A DNA stretch of 57,642 nucleotides from an uncultured Flavobacteriales bacterium (GTDB lineage: Bacteria > Bacteroidota > Bacteroidia > Flavobacteriales_E > Vicingaceae), in assembly GCA_905479995.1 (NCBI GenBank), contig CAJQON010000008.1, forward strand, positions 1 to 57,642, read 5' to 3'. A program made the translations under genes and the position numbers. How positions within the stretch are numbered: position 1 is the first letter of the stretch; every line of letters begins with the position of its first letter. Shown in pieces: positions 38,801-57,642 of this stretch. Under the pieces are notes generated by a model that did not search any database, had not been told where the DNA came from, and worked only from the letters and a program-made list of their open reading frames with translations.

Positions 38801-38838
38801 TGTCAAAAACTCCACTCCGTTAATAAGTTTTTAAAACC

Positions 38839-38922
38839 AAAAAAGCCTCGTAAACAATGTTTACAAGGCTTTTAGTGAGTGGTGCCTCCAGGAATCGAAC
38901 CAGGGACACATGGATTTTCAGT
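38839..38922. repeat. Left attachment repeat of the tRNA-Phe island (84 bp)
   Basis: Identical over 84 bp to 57529-57612. It contains a full copy of the tRNA-Phe terminator hairpin and the 3' 43 nt of the tRNA. Identity stops sharply at 38922, in the anticodon loop, where the intact tRNA continues differently. Confidence 0.9.
38880..38922 (-). pseudogene. 3' fragment of tRNA-Phe
   Basis: It covers the anticodon GAA, the 3' half of the anticodon stem, the variable loop, the T arm and the 3' acceptor strand with discriminator A. The 5' half (D arm and 5' acceptor) is missing and replaced by unrelated sequence, so it cannot be a tRNA. This is the usual scar at the far end of an element that integrated into a tRNA 3' end. 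Confidence 0.92.
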
Positions 38923-39073: not shown

Positions 39074-40531
39074 TTATAACAAATTCTTTGGAGGTACAAA
39101 TCCAGTTGTTAACTTTTCTAATTCCTTACCTATTTCCAACAATTTATAATCGTGCCATTTTTGTGCATGAATTTGAATACCAACAGGTAAACCACTTTTT
39201 GTTTGCCCTATTGGAATAGCTAAAATCGGATGACCAGGAACTGTAGTAGGGAAATTGAACGGAATAAATGCTTTGGTATAAGGCATTTTCTTTCCATTAA
39301 TTATAAAAGGAACTCCTGGATTTTGATGTTTGAATGCTTTGTCAGCAGATACTGGGGTAATCCATACATCATAGTCATTAAAAAAACGTGTAAAACTATC
39401 TGAAACATTATCTTTCTCTTCTAGAGCCTGAGCATATTTTCGAGGTGTGATACCTGCTCCAGCTCCCATTGCTTTTGCCCATTGTTTATCTTTGTATTTA
39501 CTCTTAATAAAAAGAGAGGCTATTAGACCTTTAAAAGGAATACTTTTTAGCGCTACACCAAAATCAAATCCTGCAACTTTTCCCCAAAGACTAATTAACT
39601 CACCAGAATTATATTCAGGTTGAGTTTTATGAACCTCTAAACGGTTTGATTTTTTTAATTTATGGATAAAATCCATGTATATTTCTTGGTATTCACTATC
39701 TAAAGCTACGTTATCAAGTGTTTCTGAATAAGCTGCTTTTATAACTGATTTATCATGATAATTATATTGTTTTAAATCAACAGGAGGGTTTTCTGAAAAT
39801 TGTTGAGTGGTGGTCGCTAAAACATCCATCATCAAGATTAAATCATCAACATTTTTAGCCATTGGTCCATTGCAAGTTAAATAGCGACCAATGCGTAATG
39901 ATATAGGTGTTACCATGTTTCCCCTTAAAGGAAGAGCAGATTCAGTTGTTCGCAGTCCACAAATCCCACAAAAATGAGCAGGGACTCTAATGGACCCACC
40001 TGCATCAGTACCTAATTCTAAAGGGGAAAATCCAGAAGCTAAAGCAGCGGCAGACCCTCCTGAACTTCCTCCTACAACATGATTTAAGTTATAAGGATTG
40101 TTTGTTTGCCCAAACCACTTATTTGTTGATTGCCAATCTAAAGCATACAATGCTAAGTTTGTTTTACCAATAACAATTGAACCAGCATTTTTAAGTCGAT
40201 TAACTAATTCTGCATCTGAGTCTGCAACGTTCGATTTTAATTGAGGATTACCATTTGAAGAAATTAACCCTTTAACCTGATAAGTGTCTTTAACAGTCAT
40301 CGGTAATCCATGTAAAAGGCCTAAAAATTTACCTTCTTTAATCTCTCTATCTTTCTGAGCTGCTTCTGCTAAAATTTCATCGTAATTTCTTAAATCTGAT
40401 ATAGCATTAACTTCAGCGTTGTGTCTATTTATTTGTGTTAAGAATTGTTTAGCTACTTCTACACAAGAAATTTCTTGAGCTTTTATTTGGCGTACAATTT
40501 CTGTTGCACTTTTAAATATTATTTGTTCCAT
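39074..40531 (-). CDS. Amidase (amidase signature family)
   Basis: 485 aa from the ATG at 40531; an upstream in-frame start would add 12 residues lying over the promoter. The Ser-Ser-Lys catalytic triad is visible: K in MTVKDTYQVKG, the cis-Ser in VVGGSSGGSAAALASG, and the nucleophilic Ser in LGTDAGGSIRVPAHFCG. The family hydrolyses diverse amides, and the GatA type is excluded by the missing gatB/gatC partners. The closest general type is a fatty-acid or broad-specificity amidase. No signal peptide is seen. A palindrome and a -7-like box lie in the 72 bp between it and the Crp-like gene, so control by that regulator is likely. Confidence 0.88.
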   Translation of the reverse strand: MEQIIFKSATEIVRQIKAQEISCVEVAKQFLTQINRHNAEVNAISDLRNYDEILAEAAQKDREIKEGKFLGLLHGLPMTVKDTYQVKGLISSNGNPQLKSNVADSDAELVNRLKNAGSIVIGKTNLALYALDWQSTNKWFGQTNNPYNLNHVVGGSSGGSAAALASGFSPLELGTDAGGSIRVPAHFCGICGLRTTESALPLRGNMVTPISLRIGRYLTCNGPMAKNVDDLILMMDVLATTTQQFSENPPVDLKQYNYHDKSVIKAAYSETLDNVALDSEYQEIYMDFIHKLKKSNRLEVHKTQPEYNSGELISLWGKVAGFDFGVALKSIPFKGLIASLFIKSKYKDKQWAKAMGAGAGITPRKYAQALEEKDNVSDSFTRFFNDYDVWITPVSADKAFKHQNPGVPFIINGKKMPYTKAFIPFNFPTTVPGHPILAIPIGQTKSGLPVGIQIHAQKWHDYKLLEIGKELEKLTTGFVPPKNLL

Positions 40532-40553: not shown

Positions 40554-40597
40554 CAAATTTCTCTCATACAGTTTTAAATCCACTTGATATATGTCAA
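40554..40597 (-). promoter_or_regulatory. Crp/Fnr-type operator and -7 box of the amidase gene
   Basis: The palindrome TTGATATATGTCAA (40584-40597) has 6 of 7 symmetric pairs and is one base off the FNR consensus (TTGAT-N4-ATCAA). The -7-like box GAAATTTG (minus, 40561-40554) fits TAnnTTTG except for its first base. The palindrome centre is 36.5 bp upstream of the box G, which puts it near -40.5 from the predicted start. No -33 TTG is present, as expected of an activator-dependent promoter. Confidence 0.65.
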
Positions 40598-40603
40598 ATA
40601 ATA

Positions 40604-41182
40604 CTACTTTGCTCGTATTCTACTTAAAGTTTCCTGTGTTATTCCTAAATAAGATGAGACATGTTTAAGTGTCACTCGTTGCAATATTTTAGGATGTTTT
40701 TTCATCAATAAATCATACCTTTCTTGTGCGGTATGAAATTGAAGATCTTCTATTCTATCTACTAAATCTACATAAACCTGCTGCAAAAATAAACGACCAA
40801 ATCGTTCATGCAAAATACTTTTTTGATATAGCTCTTCCATATCACTATAAGCAACAGAAAAAAGTGAGGAATCCTCTAACAGTTCAATATTATACTTGCT
40901 TTTCTCTCCATTAAGGCTATCTATAGCAGTAATAGCTTCTCCTTCAAAAGCGAAATGAGAAGTAATGTCTTTGCCATCCTTGTAATGAAAAGCACGTGCA
41001 GCACCTTTTTCAATAATATAAGAATGCTTACACACTGTATATTCACTATGCAAAGTATGTCCTTTAGGAAAAGAGTAAGGTTTAAGTATTTTTTGAAAAT
41101 CAGCAGTTAATTTCGGGTTTTCAATTAATAGTTTCTGATAAGGGGTAACTCGTTGAACTTCTCTATAAAGTGTTTCATTCAT
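40604..41182 (-). CDS. Crp/Fnr-family transcriptional regulator, left copy
   Basis: 192 aa. A cyclic-nucleotide-binding-type beta-roll (about residues 20-125; FPKGHTLHSEYTVCKHSYII, EKGAARAFHYKDGKDITSHF) is followed by a helical linker and a short winged-helix ending in LKHVSSYLGITQETLSRIRAK. The ligand-site PFGE-R-A phrase of E. coli CRP is not conserved, so the signal may not be cAMP. No iron-sulfur cysteines of FNR are present. A predicted operator lies 7 nt after the stop, before the amidase gene. Confidence 0.85.
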   Translation of the reverse strand: MNETLYREVQRVTPYQKLLIENPKLTADFQKILKPYSFPKGHTLHSEYTVCKHSYIIEKGAARAFHYKDGKDITSHFAFEGEAITAIDSLNGEKSKYNIELLEDSSLFSVAYSDMEELYQKSILHERFGRLFLQQVYVDLVDRIEDLQFHTAQERYDLLMKKHPKILQRVTLKHVSSYLGITQETLSRIRAK

Positions 41183-47654: not shown

Positions 47655-48746
47655 CTAAATTGTAAACAACATTACATCATTCTCTTTCCCACGTAAATTA
47701 ACTTTTCCTATTTTCTTAGGAACTAAATTTGACGGGACTTCTTTTAGGGCATTAAGTAAGTGTTCTGAGAACAATAGATTTACCTTATACTCATTACATT
47801 TCGATTGGATTCGAGCAGCAGTATTCAAAACATCTCCAGAAAATGCAATATCTCTTTTTACAATACCTACCTCTCCCACCATTACAGAACCATGATGCAG
47901 TCCTGCTTTAAATTTGGGCACAATACCATCAAAAGTCTCCGTATAATACTTTCCATTTTTTCTTAAACTCTCTTGTATCTCAAAAAAGCAAGTGATACAG
48001 TTAGCATTGGTTGTTCCTGCTTTCATTTTCCAACTTACAACAATTTCATCACCAACGTATTGGTATATTTCACCTCCAGAGTTTAGAATACTCATTGTAG
48101 AATCTTTAAAAACAGCCTTTATGAAATTAAAATATCGTTCCTCTCCTAATTGCTCTGCAATAGTAGTAGAACCTTTAAGGTCTAAAAACATAAAAATTCG
48201 TTCCTCTTTTTTGGGGTCAAAGTACCTTCCTAAAAGGAAAGATTTAAACACCCCAGGGCCGTATTTATCATTCACGAGTAAAGCAATTATGGTAACTGCC
48301 ACTATAAATAACCACTTGATGTAGCTAATTAATTCATCTAACCCTCCAATTCCACTCACCGCTGTAGTGAAGGCACTAACAATATCAATCTCAAATTGAT
48401 TCATTAGAAAAGTTATCTTACTAATTATTCCCACAATAAAATAGAGAGCCGTAAATGATAATAAAATGCTTAATAATGAATTTCGATAAGATTTTTCTCT
48501 TAACCACCTTTCCCAATAAAACACCATAAGTAAGCCTCCTATAAGCCCTGCAGAAATACCCGTTACAACAGCCCCTATAAAATAATCTAGAACTAATGTT
48601 GGATTTAAAGGTATGTCAAATTCAGTTACTGTGGAGTACCCTGTGTAAAATGTAAAGATGGAAAACATCACATAAAAAAAGGTAATCCATAAAACTTTTT
48701 CAATCTTTCCTTTTAATATGATGTATTTACTTATTTGCTTCGACAT
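47655..48746 (-). CDS. Membrane class III adenylate/guanylate cyclase
   Basis: 363 aa. Four transmembrane helices (about residues 15-160) anchor a C-terminal class III catalytic domain (about 183-363). The metal aspartates are D189 in FMFLDLKGST and D233 in QYVGDEIVV. The transition-state N308 and R312 are in VLNTAARIQ. The lysine that normally reads adenine (K before t-x-GD) appears as Q229, so ATP or GTP preference cannot be told. It shares the island with two cNMP-fold (Crp-type) regulators, which makes a local signalling link conceivable. Confidence 0.88.
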   Translation of the reverse strand: MSKQISKYIILKGKIEKVLWITFFYVMFSIFTFYTGYSTVTEFDIPLNPTLVLDYFIGAVVTGISAGLIGGLLMVFYWERWLREKSYRNSLLSILLSFTALYFIVGIISKITFLMNQFEIDIVSAFTTAVSGIGGLDELISYIKWLFIVAVTIIALLVNDKYGPGVFKSFLLGRYFDPKKEERIFMFLDLKGSTTIAEQLGEERYFNFIKAVFKDSTMSILNSGGEIYQYVGDEIVVSWKMKAGTTNANCITCFFEIQESLRKNGKYYTETFDGIVPKFKAGLHHGSVMVGEVGIVKRDIAFSGDVLNTAARIQSKCNEYKVNLLFSEHLLNALKEVPSNLVPKKIGKVNLRGKENDVMLFTI

Positions 48747-53689: not shown

Positions 53690-54448
53690 TTAAAATTCTA
53701 TTGACTCTCCATCATTTGGTATAAACATCTGTTCTCTTGAAATCTCGTTTTTATTCGCGAATTCCCTAAGAGATTTACGCGTTCCTTTGTTAAAATCTAT
53801 TGATTCTAGATGTACAGCAATAATAGCAGCATCAGGTGCTAGTTTTGCTACTTCAATGGTTTGTTTTTCATCCATAATAACTGGGAATTCTTCGTGTCCC
53901 GGAAAAATCCCATTACCTGAGTTGGTTACTATAATATCAGGTTTGAATTCATTTATCGTTCTTTTAACTGATTCAATAAGTATTGTATCACTTATAATAT
54001 AAATTGTAGGTTCTCCTTTGGATTGTAGCACATAGCCTGAAACTGCTCCCATATAAGGTAGAATTGTCCCACTTCCGTGCTGTCCTTCAATTCTAGTAAT
54101 TTTTATTTCTTGCCAGGTTATTTCTTTTTCAATAACTGTGACTTTGTTGAAATATTGTTTTGCAAAGAATTCACTGTCTGTAGGTGTTGAAAATAGTTGA
54201 ATGTTATTTGGCAATACTTTACTTGAAATTTTATCAAAATGATCTGGATGTGAATGAGTAACCAATACGGCATCAATATCTTTGATAATTTCTTCAACTG
54301 AAACTGTTAATTCTACAGTTGGGTTATTTTTCAATCCAGGCATAAAAGGTTCCATTGTTTCTTTTTCACATAACATTGGGTCAACCAAAATGTTTTTTCC
54401 AGCATATTTAATTTTCAATGTTGCATTTCTAATTAATTGTATTTTCAT
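53690..54448 (-). CDS. MBL-fold metal-dependent hydrolase
   Basis: 252 aa of the UlaG-like beta-lactamase-fold group. The metal site HSHPDH spans residues 65-70 in AVLVTHSHPDHFD, with EGQHGSGTI, YIISDTIL and IIAVHLESIDF as later ligands. There is no signal peptide. It is the last gene of the five-gene operon, 9 nt after the GNAT gene. A weak inverted repeat (AAAAATAG ... CTATTTTT) follows in 53582-53689 between the convergent genes. The substrate is not predictable. Confidence 0.85.
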   Translation of the reverse strand: MKIQLIRNATLKIKYAGKNILVDPMLCEKETMEPFMPGLKNNPTVELTVSVEEIIKDIDAVLVTHSHPDHFDKISSKVLPNNIQLFSTPTDSEFFAKQYFNKVTVIEKEITWQEIKITRIEGQHGSGTILPYMGAVSGYVLQSKGEPTIYIISDTILIESVKRTINEFKPDIIVTNSGNGIFPGHEEFPVIMDEKQTIEVAKLAPDAAIIAVHLESIDFNKGTRKSLREFANKNEISREQMFIPNDGESIEF

Positions 54449-54457
54449 ATTTATCTT

Positions 54458-55195
54458 TTATTTATTCGATTGTTGCAATTCGTAATTTTTGATTACGAAT
54501 TGTTCTTCAAAGCCCAACTTCAAGTACAATCCTTTTCCCATATCGGACGATTGTAACGTTATCTGATGACTATTGATTTCAATAGATTTATTTATTAGAC
54601 ATTTCATTATTTGTTCTGCATATCCTTTCCTTCTTTGTTCAGGTATAATACCAACAGAATGAATACCTGAAACATTGTTTGCTGAATGCAATATGCCAGT
54701 TCCAACAGCTTCATCTTTATGGTACGCGATATAGTAGGTAGTATTTTCTTGCGATTTACTTAATAATATTGGGTTTATATGATAGCCAAAAGATTTAGAG
54801 AATAATTCAGACCATAGTTCAGCCTCTTTCTGAGTAGAGACTGTTTTTAAATTTAAACTACTTAATTCCGCAAAAATATAATCCCTTTTTAAAGACATTC
54901 CTATTTGTTCAAACTTAAGATTGAATCCATTTTCCTCTAAAATTTTAAATGAATTGCTATTGTAAATATCCCAATATGGGATAACAAGATTAGTAGGACA
55001 AGAAATTATTCTATTTTTAGCTAACAATACCTTTTCTTTGTTAATGTCTTGCTCAAACCACAATCTATTTGGCCATTCTGAATTTTTAATTAAACTATAA
55101 TTAAAATCTGGTTCTCTAAAATACGAATCAAATGGTTCACTTACTGCACGCCAAAGAGAGGTTAGGTTTTCGATATTTAATTTTATATTATTCAT
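54458..55195 (-). CDS. GNAT-family N-acetyltransferase
   Basis: 245 aa. The C-terminal half (about residues 120-235) is a GNAT domain with the acetyl-CoA-binding loop in VGIIPEQRRKGYAEQIM and the end block LQSSDMGKGLYLKLGFEEQ. The N-terminal 110 residues are a second, degenerate domain of similar size. The acceptor is unknown. Its start overlaps the stop of the DMT transporter gene by 4 bp, so translation is coupled. Confidence 0.85.
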   Translation of the reverse strand: MNNIKLNIENLTSLWRAVSEPFDSYFREPDFNYSLIKNSEWPNRLWFEQDINKEKVLLAKNRIISCPTNLVIPYWDIYNSNSFKILEENGFNLKFEQIGMSLKRDYIFAELSSLNLKTVSTQKEAELWSELFSKSFGYHINPILLSKSQENTTYYIAYHKDEAVGTGILHSANNVSGIHSVGIIPEQRRKGYAEQIMKCLINKSIEINSHQITLQSSDMGKGLYLKLGFEEQFVIKNYELQQSNK

Positions 55196-55641
55196 TTTAT
55201 GTTAATTAATATGATTCCAAGAACCATTGATGAAACTCCTATTGTTTTTTTTAGCGTTATTGGTTCTGAGGGTAAATTTAACCATCCATAATTCCCCGCA
55301 ATTACTGAAAAGACTAATTGCCCACAAAGCCCAATTGAAATCATTGTAGAGATACCTAGTTTCGGAATAGTGTAATAATATAAACTTATTCCGATAACAC
55401 TGAAAAAACCACCTGTAAACCAAAGATAAAATGGAATCTCTTTTGCTTGTGAAATTGTAGGTAAGGATTTAAACTTAATGAGAACAAACAGGAGTGCAAA
55501 CAACGTGCTGCAGGCAAATGCGATTAGGCTAGCCAATAGTGGATTTTTTAATAAAACACCCAATTGCGCATTTAACCCTCCCTGTAAGGCTAAAAATACA
55601 CCGCCAACAAAAGCTAAAATTAATAAGAGATGACTGCTCAT
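55192..55641 (-). CDS. DMT-superfamily transporter (DUF606/EamA type)
   Basis: 149 aa with five hydrophobic helices, the size of the DUF606 half-transporters that work as dimers (LLLILAFVGGVFLALQGGLN, AQLGVLLKNPLLASLIAFAC, TISQAKEIPFYLWFTGGFFS). It probably exports a small metabolite. Overlaps of 4 bp on both sides place it inside a tightly coupled operon. Confidence 0.8.
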   Translation of the reverse strand: MSSHLLLILAFVGGVFLALQGGLNAQLGVLLKNPLLASLIAFACSTLFALLFVLIKFKSLPTISQAKEIPFYLWFTGGFFSVIGISLYYYTIPKLGISTMISIGLCGQLVFSVIAGNYGWLNLPSEPITLKKTIGVSSMVLGIILINIK

Positions 55642-56111
55642 GGCTGTTTGTAATTTAATTCAATTTTATTACTTAGACCTACATTAGCCCATGCAAATAT
55701 GTATCCAGATAGTAGGGTAATTCCTAACAAAGAAATGTTATTTATGGCTATTTCTGCATTTGATCCAAACCAAACAATCATTCCTAAAAAGTAAGCAGGA
55801 ATATTATTTAGATGTTTTAGTTTCGATATATAAAATACACCAACCATAACAATTAGTACAGCTGCCGGAAACCCGAATGAAGCTGAGTGTTCCGATAGGT
55901 TAGTGCCCAAGTATTGAATAATGATTGCAATTAAGATACCTAAAATTTGTTGTGTAAAAGTTAATAATGCTGTTTTAAGATTGGCGCCAAATAAATAGTA
56001 GCTTACCCATGCCGTAAATAGAACCCACGTTGGTATTCCAAAATAGGAGGCTGTAAAAACTGCGATTGCACCAGTTAAACCCATTGTTAATGCTTGTTTA
56101 AATGATTTCAT
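55638..56111 (-). CDS. DUF1097-type membrane protein
   Basis: 157 aa with about five transmembrane helices (LTMGLTGAIAVFTASYFGIP, WVLFTAWVSYYLFGANLKTA). The pattern matches the DUF1097 family (YcdZ-like), inner-membrane proteins of unknown function. Its start overlaps the nitroreductase stop and its stop overlaps the DMT start, each by 4 bp. Confidence 0.75.
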   Translation of the reverse strand: MKSFKQALTMGLTGAIAVFTASYFGIPTWVLFTAWVSYYLFGANLKTALLTFTQQILGILIAIIIQYLGTNLSEHSASFGFPAAVLIVMVGVFYISKLKHLNNIPAYFLGMIVWFGSNAEIAINNISLLGITLLSGYIFAWANVGLSNKIELNYKQP

Positions 56112-56734
56112 ATTTCAAATAGATTTGTAAACGATTTTCTTACTTTTTTAGCACCTTGTGAGGTGTCATCATCAGATCTATAGCCAATCGTTGCAATAAC
56201 AGACGCATTTAAGCCATGTTCATCAAGGCTTAATATCTTGTTGTATTTTTCTGCTTCAAACCCTTCCATAGGGCATGAATCTATTTTAAGTTCAGCACAT
56301 GCATTCAATAAATTACCTAAAGCAAGATAAGTTTGATTAGAAGACCACCTATGTTTTTCAGTAGCTGATTTATTTAAAACGTCTGCTTTAATAAAATCTG
56401 AATAGCCTTTAAAATCAGAAATAGGGACTTGTTCTGTTTCAGATTTTAAGGTAAAATATTCATCTATGTGTTCTTCTGTCACCACTGAGTAATTGCAAAA
56501 AACAACTAGATGAGAGGCATCAGTTATTTGGTTTTGACCGAATGAAGCTGGTTTTAGTTTCTCTCGTATTTCGCTGTTTTCGATAATAAGCACTTTATAT
56601 AGCTGCAAGCCATATGAAGAGGCGGATAATTGAATAGCCTTCTTTATTTGATCTAAGTTCTCTGATGAGACTTTTTTAGAGGGATTAAATTTCTTGGTGG
56701 CATATCTCCACTCTAGGTTGTTTATTAAATTCAT
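56108..56734 (-). CDS. NAD(P)H-dependent nitroreductase family (NfsB-like)
   Basis: 208-aa FMN-dependent oxidoreductase. RYATKKFNPSKKVSSENLDQ at residues 11-30 supplies the phosphate-binding R and K of the nitroreductase fold. SASSYGLQLYKVLII and the later YLALGNLLNACAELKIDSCP, then MEGFEAEKYNKIL, are typical of the NfsB/DrgA group. It probably reduces nitroaromatics or quinones with NAD(P)H. It is the first gene of a five-gene coupled operon preceded by a Crp-type operator and a TATCTTTG -7 box. Confidence 0.88.
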   Translation of the reverse strand: MNLINNLEWRYATKKFNPSKKVSSENLDQIKKAIQLSASSYGLQLYKVLIIENSEIREKLKPASFGQNQITDASHLVVFCNYSVVTEEHIDEYFTLKSETEQVPISDFKGYSDFIKADVLNKSATEKHRWSSNQTYLALGNLLNACAELKIDSCPMEGFEAEKYNKILSLDEHGLNASVIATIGYRSDDDTSQGAKKVRKSFTNLFEI

Positions 56735-56762
56735 AGTATCTTTTTTAGATTGATTAACAATG

Positions 56763-56808
56763 CAAAGATAAAATGAGAAATAAAGTTAAGAATTTACATA
56801 TGTTGATT
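56763..56808 (-). promoter_or_regulatory. Crp/Fnr-type operator and -7 box of the nitroreductase operon
   Basis: TATCTTTG (minus, 56770-56763) matches TAnnTTTG perfectly. A palindrome with core ACATATGT (56796-56803) and outer AAT/ATT arms (56791-56808) is centred 36.5 bp upstream of the box G, about -40.5 from the predicted start. No -33 TTG is present. Spacing is identical to the amidase promoter, and 10 of 14 positions agree when the two sites are aligned by centre. Confidence 0.65.
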
Positions 56809-57407
56809 TAGGCGTTATTTTTTAAAGATTTTCTTATTCTACTTAACTGAGTAGGTGTAATTCCTAAATGTGAGGCTATATGAATTTTTTGTATTCGTTG
56901 CTCAATACCTGGGTGCTTTTTAAGTAACTGTTGATACCTTTCTGTTGCATTTTCCATAACGATAGAAACTTCTCTTTGTTCTTTTTCAATAACCCAATTG
57001 TTTTCCAAATAAGCAATATAAAAATTTTTTAAGTCGATATTTTGCTCAATAAGCTGTCTATATTTTTTATAATCTAGATTGATAAGAACCGTTTCTTCTA
57101 ACGCTTCTATTGTGAAATTTGATGGGGTAGATCGAAGATAGGAAACAGTTGACCCAGCAAAATCTGTTTCAAGAAAAATGTTCTTAGTATAGATATTTCC
57201 ATCATAATCAGTTATATATGCTCTCAAAGCACCTTTACAAACAAAGTGTATTTTTTTTGCAGTCTGACCGTCTCGTAGTAAAAAATCATCTTTTTCTAAT
57301 TCCTGAAAGGTAGCGATTGATGCTATTAAAGCCCATGATTCATCGGATATTGGAGCGTAGCTTTCAATTTTTGATCTAAATTTCGATTTGTATTTTTCTT
57401 TATCCAA
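56808..57407 (-). CDS. Crp/Fnr-family transcriptional regulator, right copy
   Basis: 199 aa. A cNMP-type beta-roll (about residues 25-130; LEKDDFLLRDGQTAKKIHFV, CKGALRAYITDYDGN) precedes a helical linker and a winged helix (IQKIHIASHLGITPTQLSRI). It is similar in layout and in the HLGIT recognition-helix region to the copy at 40604-41182, and likewise lacks the cAMP-contact phrase of E. coli CRP. The predicted operator touches its stop codon, and the nitroreductase operon follows. A TACTTTCG -7-like box (57437-57444, minus) lies 29 nt before its ATG. Confidence 0.85.
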   Translation of the reverse strand: MDKEKYKSKFRSKIESYAPISDESWALIASIATFQELEKDDFLLRDGQTAKKIHFVCKGALRAYITDYDGNIYTKNIFLETDFAGSTVSYLRSTPSNFTIEALEETVLINLDYKKYRQLIEQNIDLKNFYIAYLENNWVIEKEQREVSIVMENATERYQQLLKKHPGIEQRIQKIHIASHLGITPTQLSRIRKSLKNNA

Positions 57408-57528
57408 TCTGAGTTCTTTTAGAATGTATTGAGAAACGAAAGTAGTAATAAAATAAAGAGGGTTCCATGCTCAAAAAGTACGCTCCTATTTTTAAGAGTG
57501 TACGCTTTGCAATTTTTCTCTTTTAACT

Positions 57529-57563
57529 AAAAAAGCCTCGTAAACAATGTTTACAAGGCTTTT
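57529..57563 (-). terminator. Terminator of tRNA-Phe
   Basis: AAAAGCCTTGTAAAC pairs with GTTTACGAGGCTTTT (one mismatch) around a 3-nt loop and ends in six T on the minus strand. It is part of the att repeat, so a second copy sits at 38839-38873. Confidence 0.85.
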
Positions 57564-57612
57564 AGTGAGTGGTGCCTCCAGGAATCGAACCAGGGACACA
57601 TGGATTTTCAGT
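57529..57612. repeat. Right attachment repeat of the tRNA-Phe island (84 bp)
   Basis: Identical to 38839-38922. Here the copy is joined to the 5' half of tRNA-Phe, so the intact gene is restored. Just inside the island an imperfect inverted repeat, GTACGCTC (57478-57485) with GAGTGTAC (57496-57503), may be an integrase or host-factor site. Confidence 0.9.
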
Positions 57613-57642
57613 CCATTGCTCTACCAACTGAGCTAAGGCACC
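57570..57642 (-). tRNA. tRNA-Phe (GAA)
   Basis: A full cloverleaf on the minus strand: acceptor GGTGCCT pairs with AGGCACC, the D arm is AGCTCAGTTGGTAGAGC, the anticodon loop is CTGAAAA with anticodon GAA, and the T loop is TTCGATT. Discriminator A, no encoded CCA. The 5' end is the last base of the window. Its 3' half is inside the 84-bp repeat and serves as the island attachment site. Confidence 0.96.

Follow-up and report, generated by a model that had tools for sequence, protein, structure and literature searches.

A predicted one-operon Crp-type activator with its operator directly behind its own gene, and the same layout in most of its surveyed Bacteroidota relatives

The class II activators CRP and FNR of E. 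coli act from sites centred at -41.5, and CRP contacts cAMP through E72, R82 and S83. For the Crp-type regulators of Bacteroidota, we know of no target and site assigned in most cases. One that has been described, the Bacteroides Crp BT4338, has a palindromic motif and is credited, in the accessible part of the source, with a predicted global regulon of up to 30 genes, a 22-bp motif different from the one reported here and possible autoregulation (PMC3878776). It has been shown since 2005 that residues 180 and 181 (CRP numbering) track the CRP/FNR motif, as with HcpR1/HcpR2, DNR and NnrR; the same source, as far as it was available to us, names CRP residues 180, 181 and 185 as DNA-contacting and predicts the HcpR2 regulons of most Bacteroides to comprise hcp genes only (PMC1274295).

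Here we describe CrpB, a Crp/Fnr-type regulator of an uncultured Flavobacteriales bacterium, encoded on a contig of 57,642 nucleotides (CAJQON010000008.1) that was analysed whole and is called the window below. We hypothesise that CrpB is a local activator of one operon with its operator behind its own gene, that most of its relatives have the same layout, and that their operators are matched to their recognition helices. We hold this reading with high confidence, although binding, activation rather than repression, and the absence of cross-talk are inferred, as there are no binding, start-site or expression data; conservation, geometry, the dependence on target orientation, the helix covariation and the mostly successful advance predictions were computed directly. 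In the mechanism that we propose, a CrpB dimer would use its recognition helix (residues 185-190) to bind ATCAACATATGTAAA, immediately past its own gene, and, centred at -41.5 of a promoter with a -7 box and no -33 TTG, would aid RNA polymerase in starting a five-gene operon by class II activation. CrpA, a paralogous regulator, would act likewise on an amidase gene with a different helix and a different site, and most of the small Crp-type relatives surveyed would follow one order: regulator, stop codon, own operator, 22-23 nt, -7 box, target gene.

CrpB (56808..57407, minus strand) is a protein of 199 amino acids with a TTG start at 57405-57407, and TTG stands at the corresponding place in 6 of the 11 orthologs printed; perhaps such a start keeps these regulators scarce. 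Both CrpB and CrpA have the N-terminal cNMP-binding-type domain of the Crp family (PF00027, E 3.2e-12 and 2.5e-10 respectively). No Pfam helix-turn-helix model matched either protein at E 0.001; a C-terminal helix-turn-helix is nevertheless supported by the nearest solved chain, 3dn7 (E 7.8e-16), which aligns with CrpB residues 14-194, and by the covariation of the helix columns with DNA. The recognition helix is P185-T186-Q187-L-S-R190 (PTQLSR). Domain order and a site centre at -41.5 from the predicted start are thus shared with the E. coli class II activators. CrpB differs from them in that the cAMP contacts of CRP are not kept (CRP GELGLFEEGQERS aligns with CrpB GSTVSYLRSTPSN, giving E to S, R to S and S to N; this alignment covers CrpB only, not CrpA), in lacking the four-cysteine iron-sulfur cluster of FNR (CrpB and CrpA have 1 cysteine each), in a promoter of the Bacteroidota -7 type, in an operator placed behind its own gene and in having no regulon that we could see past the next operon. 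The CrpB site also agrees with what we take to be the PrfA box, TTAACANNTGTTAA, at 10 of 12 specified bases, and PrfA, we assume, has no E at the 181 position, as is the case in CrpB.

The operator ATCAACATATGTAAA (56793..56807, minus strand) contains a palindrome core, ACATATGT, at 56796-56803. The initial annotation had centred this core at 56799.5, adjoining the CrpB stop, and 36.5 bp from the G of a -7 box; both statements are borne out, as the 14-mer TCAACATATGTAAA (56793-56806, minus strand) lies 1 base past the stop codon and the G is at 56763. The box itself, TATCTTTG (56763..56770, minus strand), is a perfect TAnnTTTG, 22 nt past the operator. Such boxes are placed at -12 to -5 in those parts of two earlier studies that were accessible (PMC6847099, PMC9723704). 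With the G at -5, the 36.5 bp put the operator centre at -41.5, so that the class II position is met with respect to a start site that is predicted, near 56758 for the nitroreductase operon, and not mapped. The operator is an imperfect, asymmetric palindrome (5 of 7 pairs) that is fixed, and a symmetric dimer does not explain this fixed asymmetry.

Taken singly, these elements are not unusual in the window: ACATATGT is seen 2 times against 0.86 expected (at least 2 in 21 of 100 shuffles), TAnnTTTG 78 times against 95.6 expected, and a composite defined loosely, by 5 or more of 7 pairs, 5 or more of 6 box bases and a gap of 22, occurs 25 times on both strands. Because the loose composite is so frequent, the case for a module does not rest on the window alone; the evidence comes from orthologs, a genome scan and a family survey. 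The exact 14-mer TCAACATATGTAAA is found once in the 3.1-Mb genome. When the composite TNNACATATNTNNA-N22-TANNTTTG was searched, the sole exact match was CrpB, and one of the two places with one mismatch was the CrpA/amidase module. The genome-wide scan for site-box pairs proposed in the initial annotation therefore singles out the two modules, although its totals do not exceed the control: with up to 3 mismatches there were 423 matches, as compared with 499 for the reversed pattern. If CrpB is a one-operon regulator, totals at or below the control would be given. The 14-mer and composite scans of the 3.1-Mb genome gave no sign of a CrpB regulon beyond the next operon, and a wider regulon was rejected on these scans.

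Orthologs provide the closest view of the site. One contig scan yielded 11 relatives at 58-81% identity, and a class-wide search at E 1e-30 or better gave matches in 12 of 395 genomes, including its own. In 13 of the 15 orthologs with at least 58% identity (L022-L036) the 15 bases of ATCAACATATGTAAA and the six specified bases of TAnnTTTG are unchanged at fixed spacing, and in an alignment of these 13 with CrpB all 15 operator and all 6 box bases are invariant while most spacer columns vary. These 14 sequences were chosen after their sites had been seen, and the two orthologs left out are reported separately: L032 (58%) has ATCAACCTATGTAAA, with one changed base and a poor box, and L034 has no matching site and a next ORF in the opposite direction. 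Four relatives at 45-49% identity comprise L039, with the exact 14-mer and a full box; L037 and L040, with close variants at the same gap; and L038 (46%, helix PRQFSR), which has no site though its next ORF is co-directional. The gene that follows is a nitroreductase in L022-L030 and L033, a GNAT acetyltransferase in L031, L035, L036 and L039, and YdcZ in L032, L037 and L040. As the next gene differs and the operator is kept, the site goes with the regulator and not with the target. Within the bacterium's own family (46 genomes), non-self matches at E 1e-20 never exceeded 35% identity to CrpB; from this absence of a close relative we infer that CrpB was probably acquired.

The operon predicted to be under CrpB comprises five genes on the minus strand that, as the initial annotation had it and the coordinates confirm, overlap or almost abut: 1) a nitroreductase (56108..56734; PF00881, E 2.4e-22, with an NCBIfam PRK11053 match below its cutoff); 2) a DUF1097 protein (55638..56111; PF06496, E 3.8e-21); 3) a YdcZ-type DMT exporter (55192..55641; PF04657, E 4.7e-32); 4) a GNAT acetyltransferase (54458..55195; PF13673 and others); and, 5) a metallo-beta-lactamase-fold hydrolase (53690..54448; PF12706), for which no counterpart was matched in the orthologous loci, within flanks of 6 kb or 1.5 kb. 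Among the companions of the CrpB orthologs, GNAT and YdcZ are the commonest and nitroreductase comes next (flanks of L033-L040 extend only 1.5 kb). One could imagine a detoxification route in which a nitro group is reduced, the amine acetylated and the product exported, an inference that we offer only tentatively.

Both regulators lie on an 18.7-kb island bounded by two 88-nt direct repeats that are 99% identical and 18,690 bp apart. On the plus strand, the left repeat (38835..38922) consists of the 3' end of tRNA-Phe and the sequence behind it and marks the island boundary, and the right one (57525..57612) overlaps a complete tRNA-Phe (57569-57642). Another contig of the genome, C57, starts inside the same repeat and tRNA-Phe and continues into other genes, which fits an island inserted in tRNA-Phe. 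A Pfam scan of the island ORFs, from which a few short ones lying over larger ORFs were left out, revealed no recognisable integrase. Between the two Crp modules the island also encodes a protein with a catalytic domain of the adenylate/guanylate cyclase type (47655-48746, minus strand).

At the other end of the island lies CrpA (40604..41182, minus strand; 192 amino acids, helix Q-E-T-L-S-R), with 33% identity to CrpB. Its operator, TTGACATATATCAA (40584..40597, minus strand), is followed after 22 nt by the box GAAATTTG (40554-40561, minus strand) and by the amidase gene (39074..40531, minus strand; PF01425, E 2e-92 for the longer ORF). We infer the amidase start to be ATG 40531, because the promoter box is inside the longer ORF, which is listed to 40567. 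The initial annotation had claimed the same geometry at the amidase site as at CrpB, which is correct except that the box is GAnnTTTG and not the perfect TAnnTTTG, and an agreement of 10 of 14 positions when the sites are aligned by centre, which we also find; a match to the CrpA site at 10 or more of 14 positions is reached by 0.11% of random 14-mers of the window. Its view that two paralogous regulator-operator-target modules sit at the island ends is supported, as each regulator has an operator, a box and a target directly downstream. A CrpA relative at 51% identity (L075) likewise has an amidase downstream (43%), an ET-type site, N22 and GTCTTTTG. The CrpA site resembles what we take to be the FNR box, TTGAT-N4-ATCAA.

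The initial annotation left undecided whether each module would be switched on by its own or by a shared Crp-like protein. That one regulator works on both sites could be argued from the centred identity of 10 of 14, the ACATAT core in common and the one island that holds both. We regard it as distinctly unlikely, as sites of the CrpA class (E-T at residues 186 and 187) have G3 in 41 of 42 and C12 in 42 of 42 cases, while those of the CrpB class (T-Q) have A12 in 23 of 23 with A or T at position 3. A single operator type for CrpA and CrpB was accordingly rejected. The alternative of own regulators is favoured by this difference at site positions 3 and 12 and by the operator that stays with the CrpB orthologs when the target changes. 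CrpA being of the E-T class and CrpB of the T-Q class, the two modules are predicted to be separate, which we consider probable.

Palindromes were also seen behind the stop codons of other paralogs, and a survey was therefore assembled. Of 180 matches found by similarity to CrpA and CrpB, it took the 175 regulators that were non-identical and had 90 nt or more of sequence downstream; as similarity to these two defined the set, the results speak for that group only. From one longer list of places, 30 that came with loci and 100 more were included and the remainder was not taken; the pattern-scan loci L044-L073 were excluded, and a few of the regulators are possibly partial or distant (for example L003, L094 and L127). 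As controls we used 405 gene ends (399 in the learned-model test) of other ORFs at the same loci. First-look candidates for Crp-type regulators number up to 38 in one Bacteroidota genome, not all of them scored. A palindrome and box at a gap of 22 nt were found at 62 of 175 regulator ends, as compared with 0-13 at every other gap from 10 to 35 and with 6 of 405 controls, and the peak remains without the CrpB loci (46 of 153, with 12 or fewer at other gaps). When 6 or more of 7 pairs were required together with a perfect box, 9 of 175 remained at this gap and 0 of 405 controls; so strict a criterion is too narrow, because several site classes are asymmetric.

A learned model found a site and box in 130 of the 175 regulators (111 of 153 without the CrpB loci) as opposed to 13 of 399 control gene ends, and no such site in the other 45. 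With one half of the protein clusters used for training and the other for testing, in five repeats, 636 of 875 tests passed (cluster average 0.70) at a control rate of 3%. The shuffles used with it were swap-based and imperfectly mixed, and their 5 of 175 passes were set by the threshold, so the control gene ends are the better yardstick. How common the layout is across the family is beyond what the initial annotation could see.

The sites depend on the direction of the next ORF: they were present in 124 of 149 cases where it was the same, in 2 of 19 where it was opposite and in 4 of 7 where it was unclear or the downstream sequence too short (Fisher p 4e-10 for same versus opposite, relatedness not corrected). 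This bears on a rival reading, in which the palindrome is not bound by a protein but acts in the RNA, as an element or a terminator where the crp transcript ends; its place directly behind the stop codon and a weak hairpin at the CrpA site (-3.6 kcal/mol) might suggest as much. The CrpB site, however, is unfolded (0 kcal/mol), neither fold beats its shuffles (z 0.44 and -0.56), and the site is tied to a promoter box, to the direction of the next gene and to the recognition helix; we rejected an RNA element on the folding scores and the helix covariation, and find it very improbable. In the regulators' own upstream regions, searched on their own strand, there was little excess of sites over inside-gene controls (12 of 171 versus 8 of 175), and autoregulation of the surveyed regulators was rejected on these counts. 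A site and box on the divergent strand were seen upstream of 19 of 171 regulators, compared with 3 of 175 inside-gene controls; given this excess, some regulators may have a second, divergent target.

The spacing among the 130 sites also bears on the sign of regulation, which cannot be told from the sequence by itself. If CrpB sat over -48 to -35, it could exclude polymerase and block the promoter until released by a signal. Against such repression stand the rigid centre at -41.5 (the gap is 22 in 102 of the 130 and 23 in 27) and the near absence of a -33 TTG, with TTG found 17-23 nt ahead of the box just 3 times in total among 102 promoters. A rigid -41.5 site without a -33 element is the activator-dependent pattern of CRP/FNR class II, and we consider repression unlikely. 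Two caveats apply to the missing TTG: the right arm of the operator itself limits the bases possible there, and the -33 motif is generally weak in F. johnsoniae, according to the available part of that study (PMC6847099). Activation, the "switched on" of the initial annotation, fits both the position and the missing element and was not measured.

To ask which residues go with which bases, protein columns were tested for predicting site bases, the protein having played no part in choosing the sites. By mutual information, columns 186 and 187 came first and second of 188 in three runs: 73 cluster representatives (z 15.2 and 12.0, then column 137 at 5.2 and columns 185 and 190 at 4.5), 75 sequences with no pair above 50% identity (14.4 and 10.2, with 185 third and 190 fifth) and 57 with no pair above 40% (10.0 and 8.0, with 190 third and 185 seventh). 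Columns 186, 187, 185 and 190 align with CRP 181, 182, 180 and 185, which we take to be E181, T182, R180 and R185. One may object that such covariation reflects shared ancestry only, related regulators being followed by related DNA without any recognition; every column tracks phylogeny somewhat, and several outside the helix, for example 137 and 75, also reach z 4-6. We find this hardly tenable, as 186 and 187 are still the top two in the 57 sequences with no pair above 40% identity, the advance predictions described below were mostly good below 50% identity too, and across less than 45% identity the nearest neighbours by helix predicted the six specificity positions at 0.79, where the rest of the protein reached 0.65, the majority base 0.70 and random choice 0.58. 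Recognition by the helix therefore remains our reading.

The sites fall into classes by residues 186 and 187. Class E-T reads TTGA..TCAA. All 14 E-S sites carry A3 and C12, all 14 V-S sites carry A or T at 12, and the 20 sites of Q-S, Q-A and P-S taken together all carry T or G there. Where E precedes Y, F or H and R190 is missing, the 4 sites are of the form TTAAG..CTTA. The structure 3dn7, with the helix TPEYLSEIR, belongs to the E-Y class, for which the code predicts TTAAG..CTTAA, unlike the CrpB site. An Arg-His class (L254, L262, L267, L302, L307 and L324), with 3 members in the survey and 6 in the fresh set below, has GGACATTTGTC-like sites. Column 186 carries 0.93 bit on the promoter-proximal base 12 as against 0.35 bit on the distal base 3. 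Asymmetry of the operator also goes by class, E-S having A3 with C12 and the T-Q sites of the CrpB orthologs TCAAC with GTAAA, and this class-wise asymmetry is not explained by a symmetric dimer.

Predictions were written before further regulators were fetched from a phylum-wide draw. The fresh set comprised 90 loci (30 from the draw and 60 fetched from a longer list) with 91 regulators, of which 83 were tested after 7 already used and 1 duplicate had been dropped; as a regulator of the E-S type served as query, this class is favoured. Sites were found in 57 of 76 cases with a co-directional next ORF, where at least 60% had been predicted, and in 2 of 6 with an opposite one, where the prediction of at most 20% was missed on small numbers. 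The base predictions held: E186 with C12 in 33 of 35, T or V186 with A or T at 12 in 5 of 5, Q186 with T or G at 12 in 12 of 13 (no P186 was among the sites) and, given E186, T187 with G3 in 8 of 8 and S or A187 with A3 in 18 of 20. E-F sites were mixed (n=5), and Arg-His sites, as in the survey, had G3 and C12, here in 6 of 6. No site was found in 24 of the 83, the gap was 21 in 6 of 59 and some boxes were poor. As 36 of the 83 were at least 50% identical to a survey protein, the set is only partly independent, and the counts were repeated on the other 47: sites in 31 of 41 co-directional and 1 of 5 opposite cases, E186 with C12 in 22 of 22, T187 with G3 in 5 of 5 and S or A187 with A3 in 10 of 12. 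We think it likely that the small Crp-type paralogs of this group in Bacteroidota are mostly self-contained cassettes, in which the stop codon of the regulator is followed directly by a class II operator private to it, and that their specificities form a code at two or three helix residues.

That residues 180 and 181 track the motif was known already; we did not find the layout behind the regulator's own gene across Bacteroidota, or the extended code, in earlier work. The earlier analysis, in its available part, covers a few named regulators and two positions (PMC1274295), to which the present one adds residue 187 (the equivalent of 182), 130 sites and a site fixed behind the regulator gene. 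The two agree where they meet, as HcpR2 with P181 has GTAACnnnnGTTAC in that source and the surveyed P186 sites are GGTTAA-like. BT4338 is, like CrpB, a Crp-family regulator of Bacteroidota with a palindromic motif; unlike it, the surveyed regulators have one target and no sign of autoregulation. A 2025 survey of DNA-binding domains does not contain "Bacteroid" in its main text, as far as that was accessible (PMC12531629), and in the open-access literature, available in part and searched with some weak queries, no report of operators behind Bacteroidota Crp genes or of an extended helix code was found.

As the operators diverge along with helix residues 186 and 187, each cassette may be largely insulated from its paralogs and movable as a unit, here on a tRNA-Phe island. 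If this is true, the genome sequence would suffice to tell target and site in most members of the group, the docking site often being predictable from two amino acids of the regulator, and the promoter-proximal half-site would be the one read most strictly. The survival of such regulators after transfer would be explained as well, since the operator would move in one piece with its regulator. The cassettes and their code would then amount to a large natural collection of activator-promoter pairs that are insulated from one another and can move on islands, and would supply candidate orthogonal pairs for a phylum with few genetic tools.
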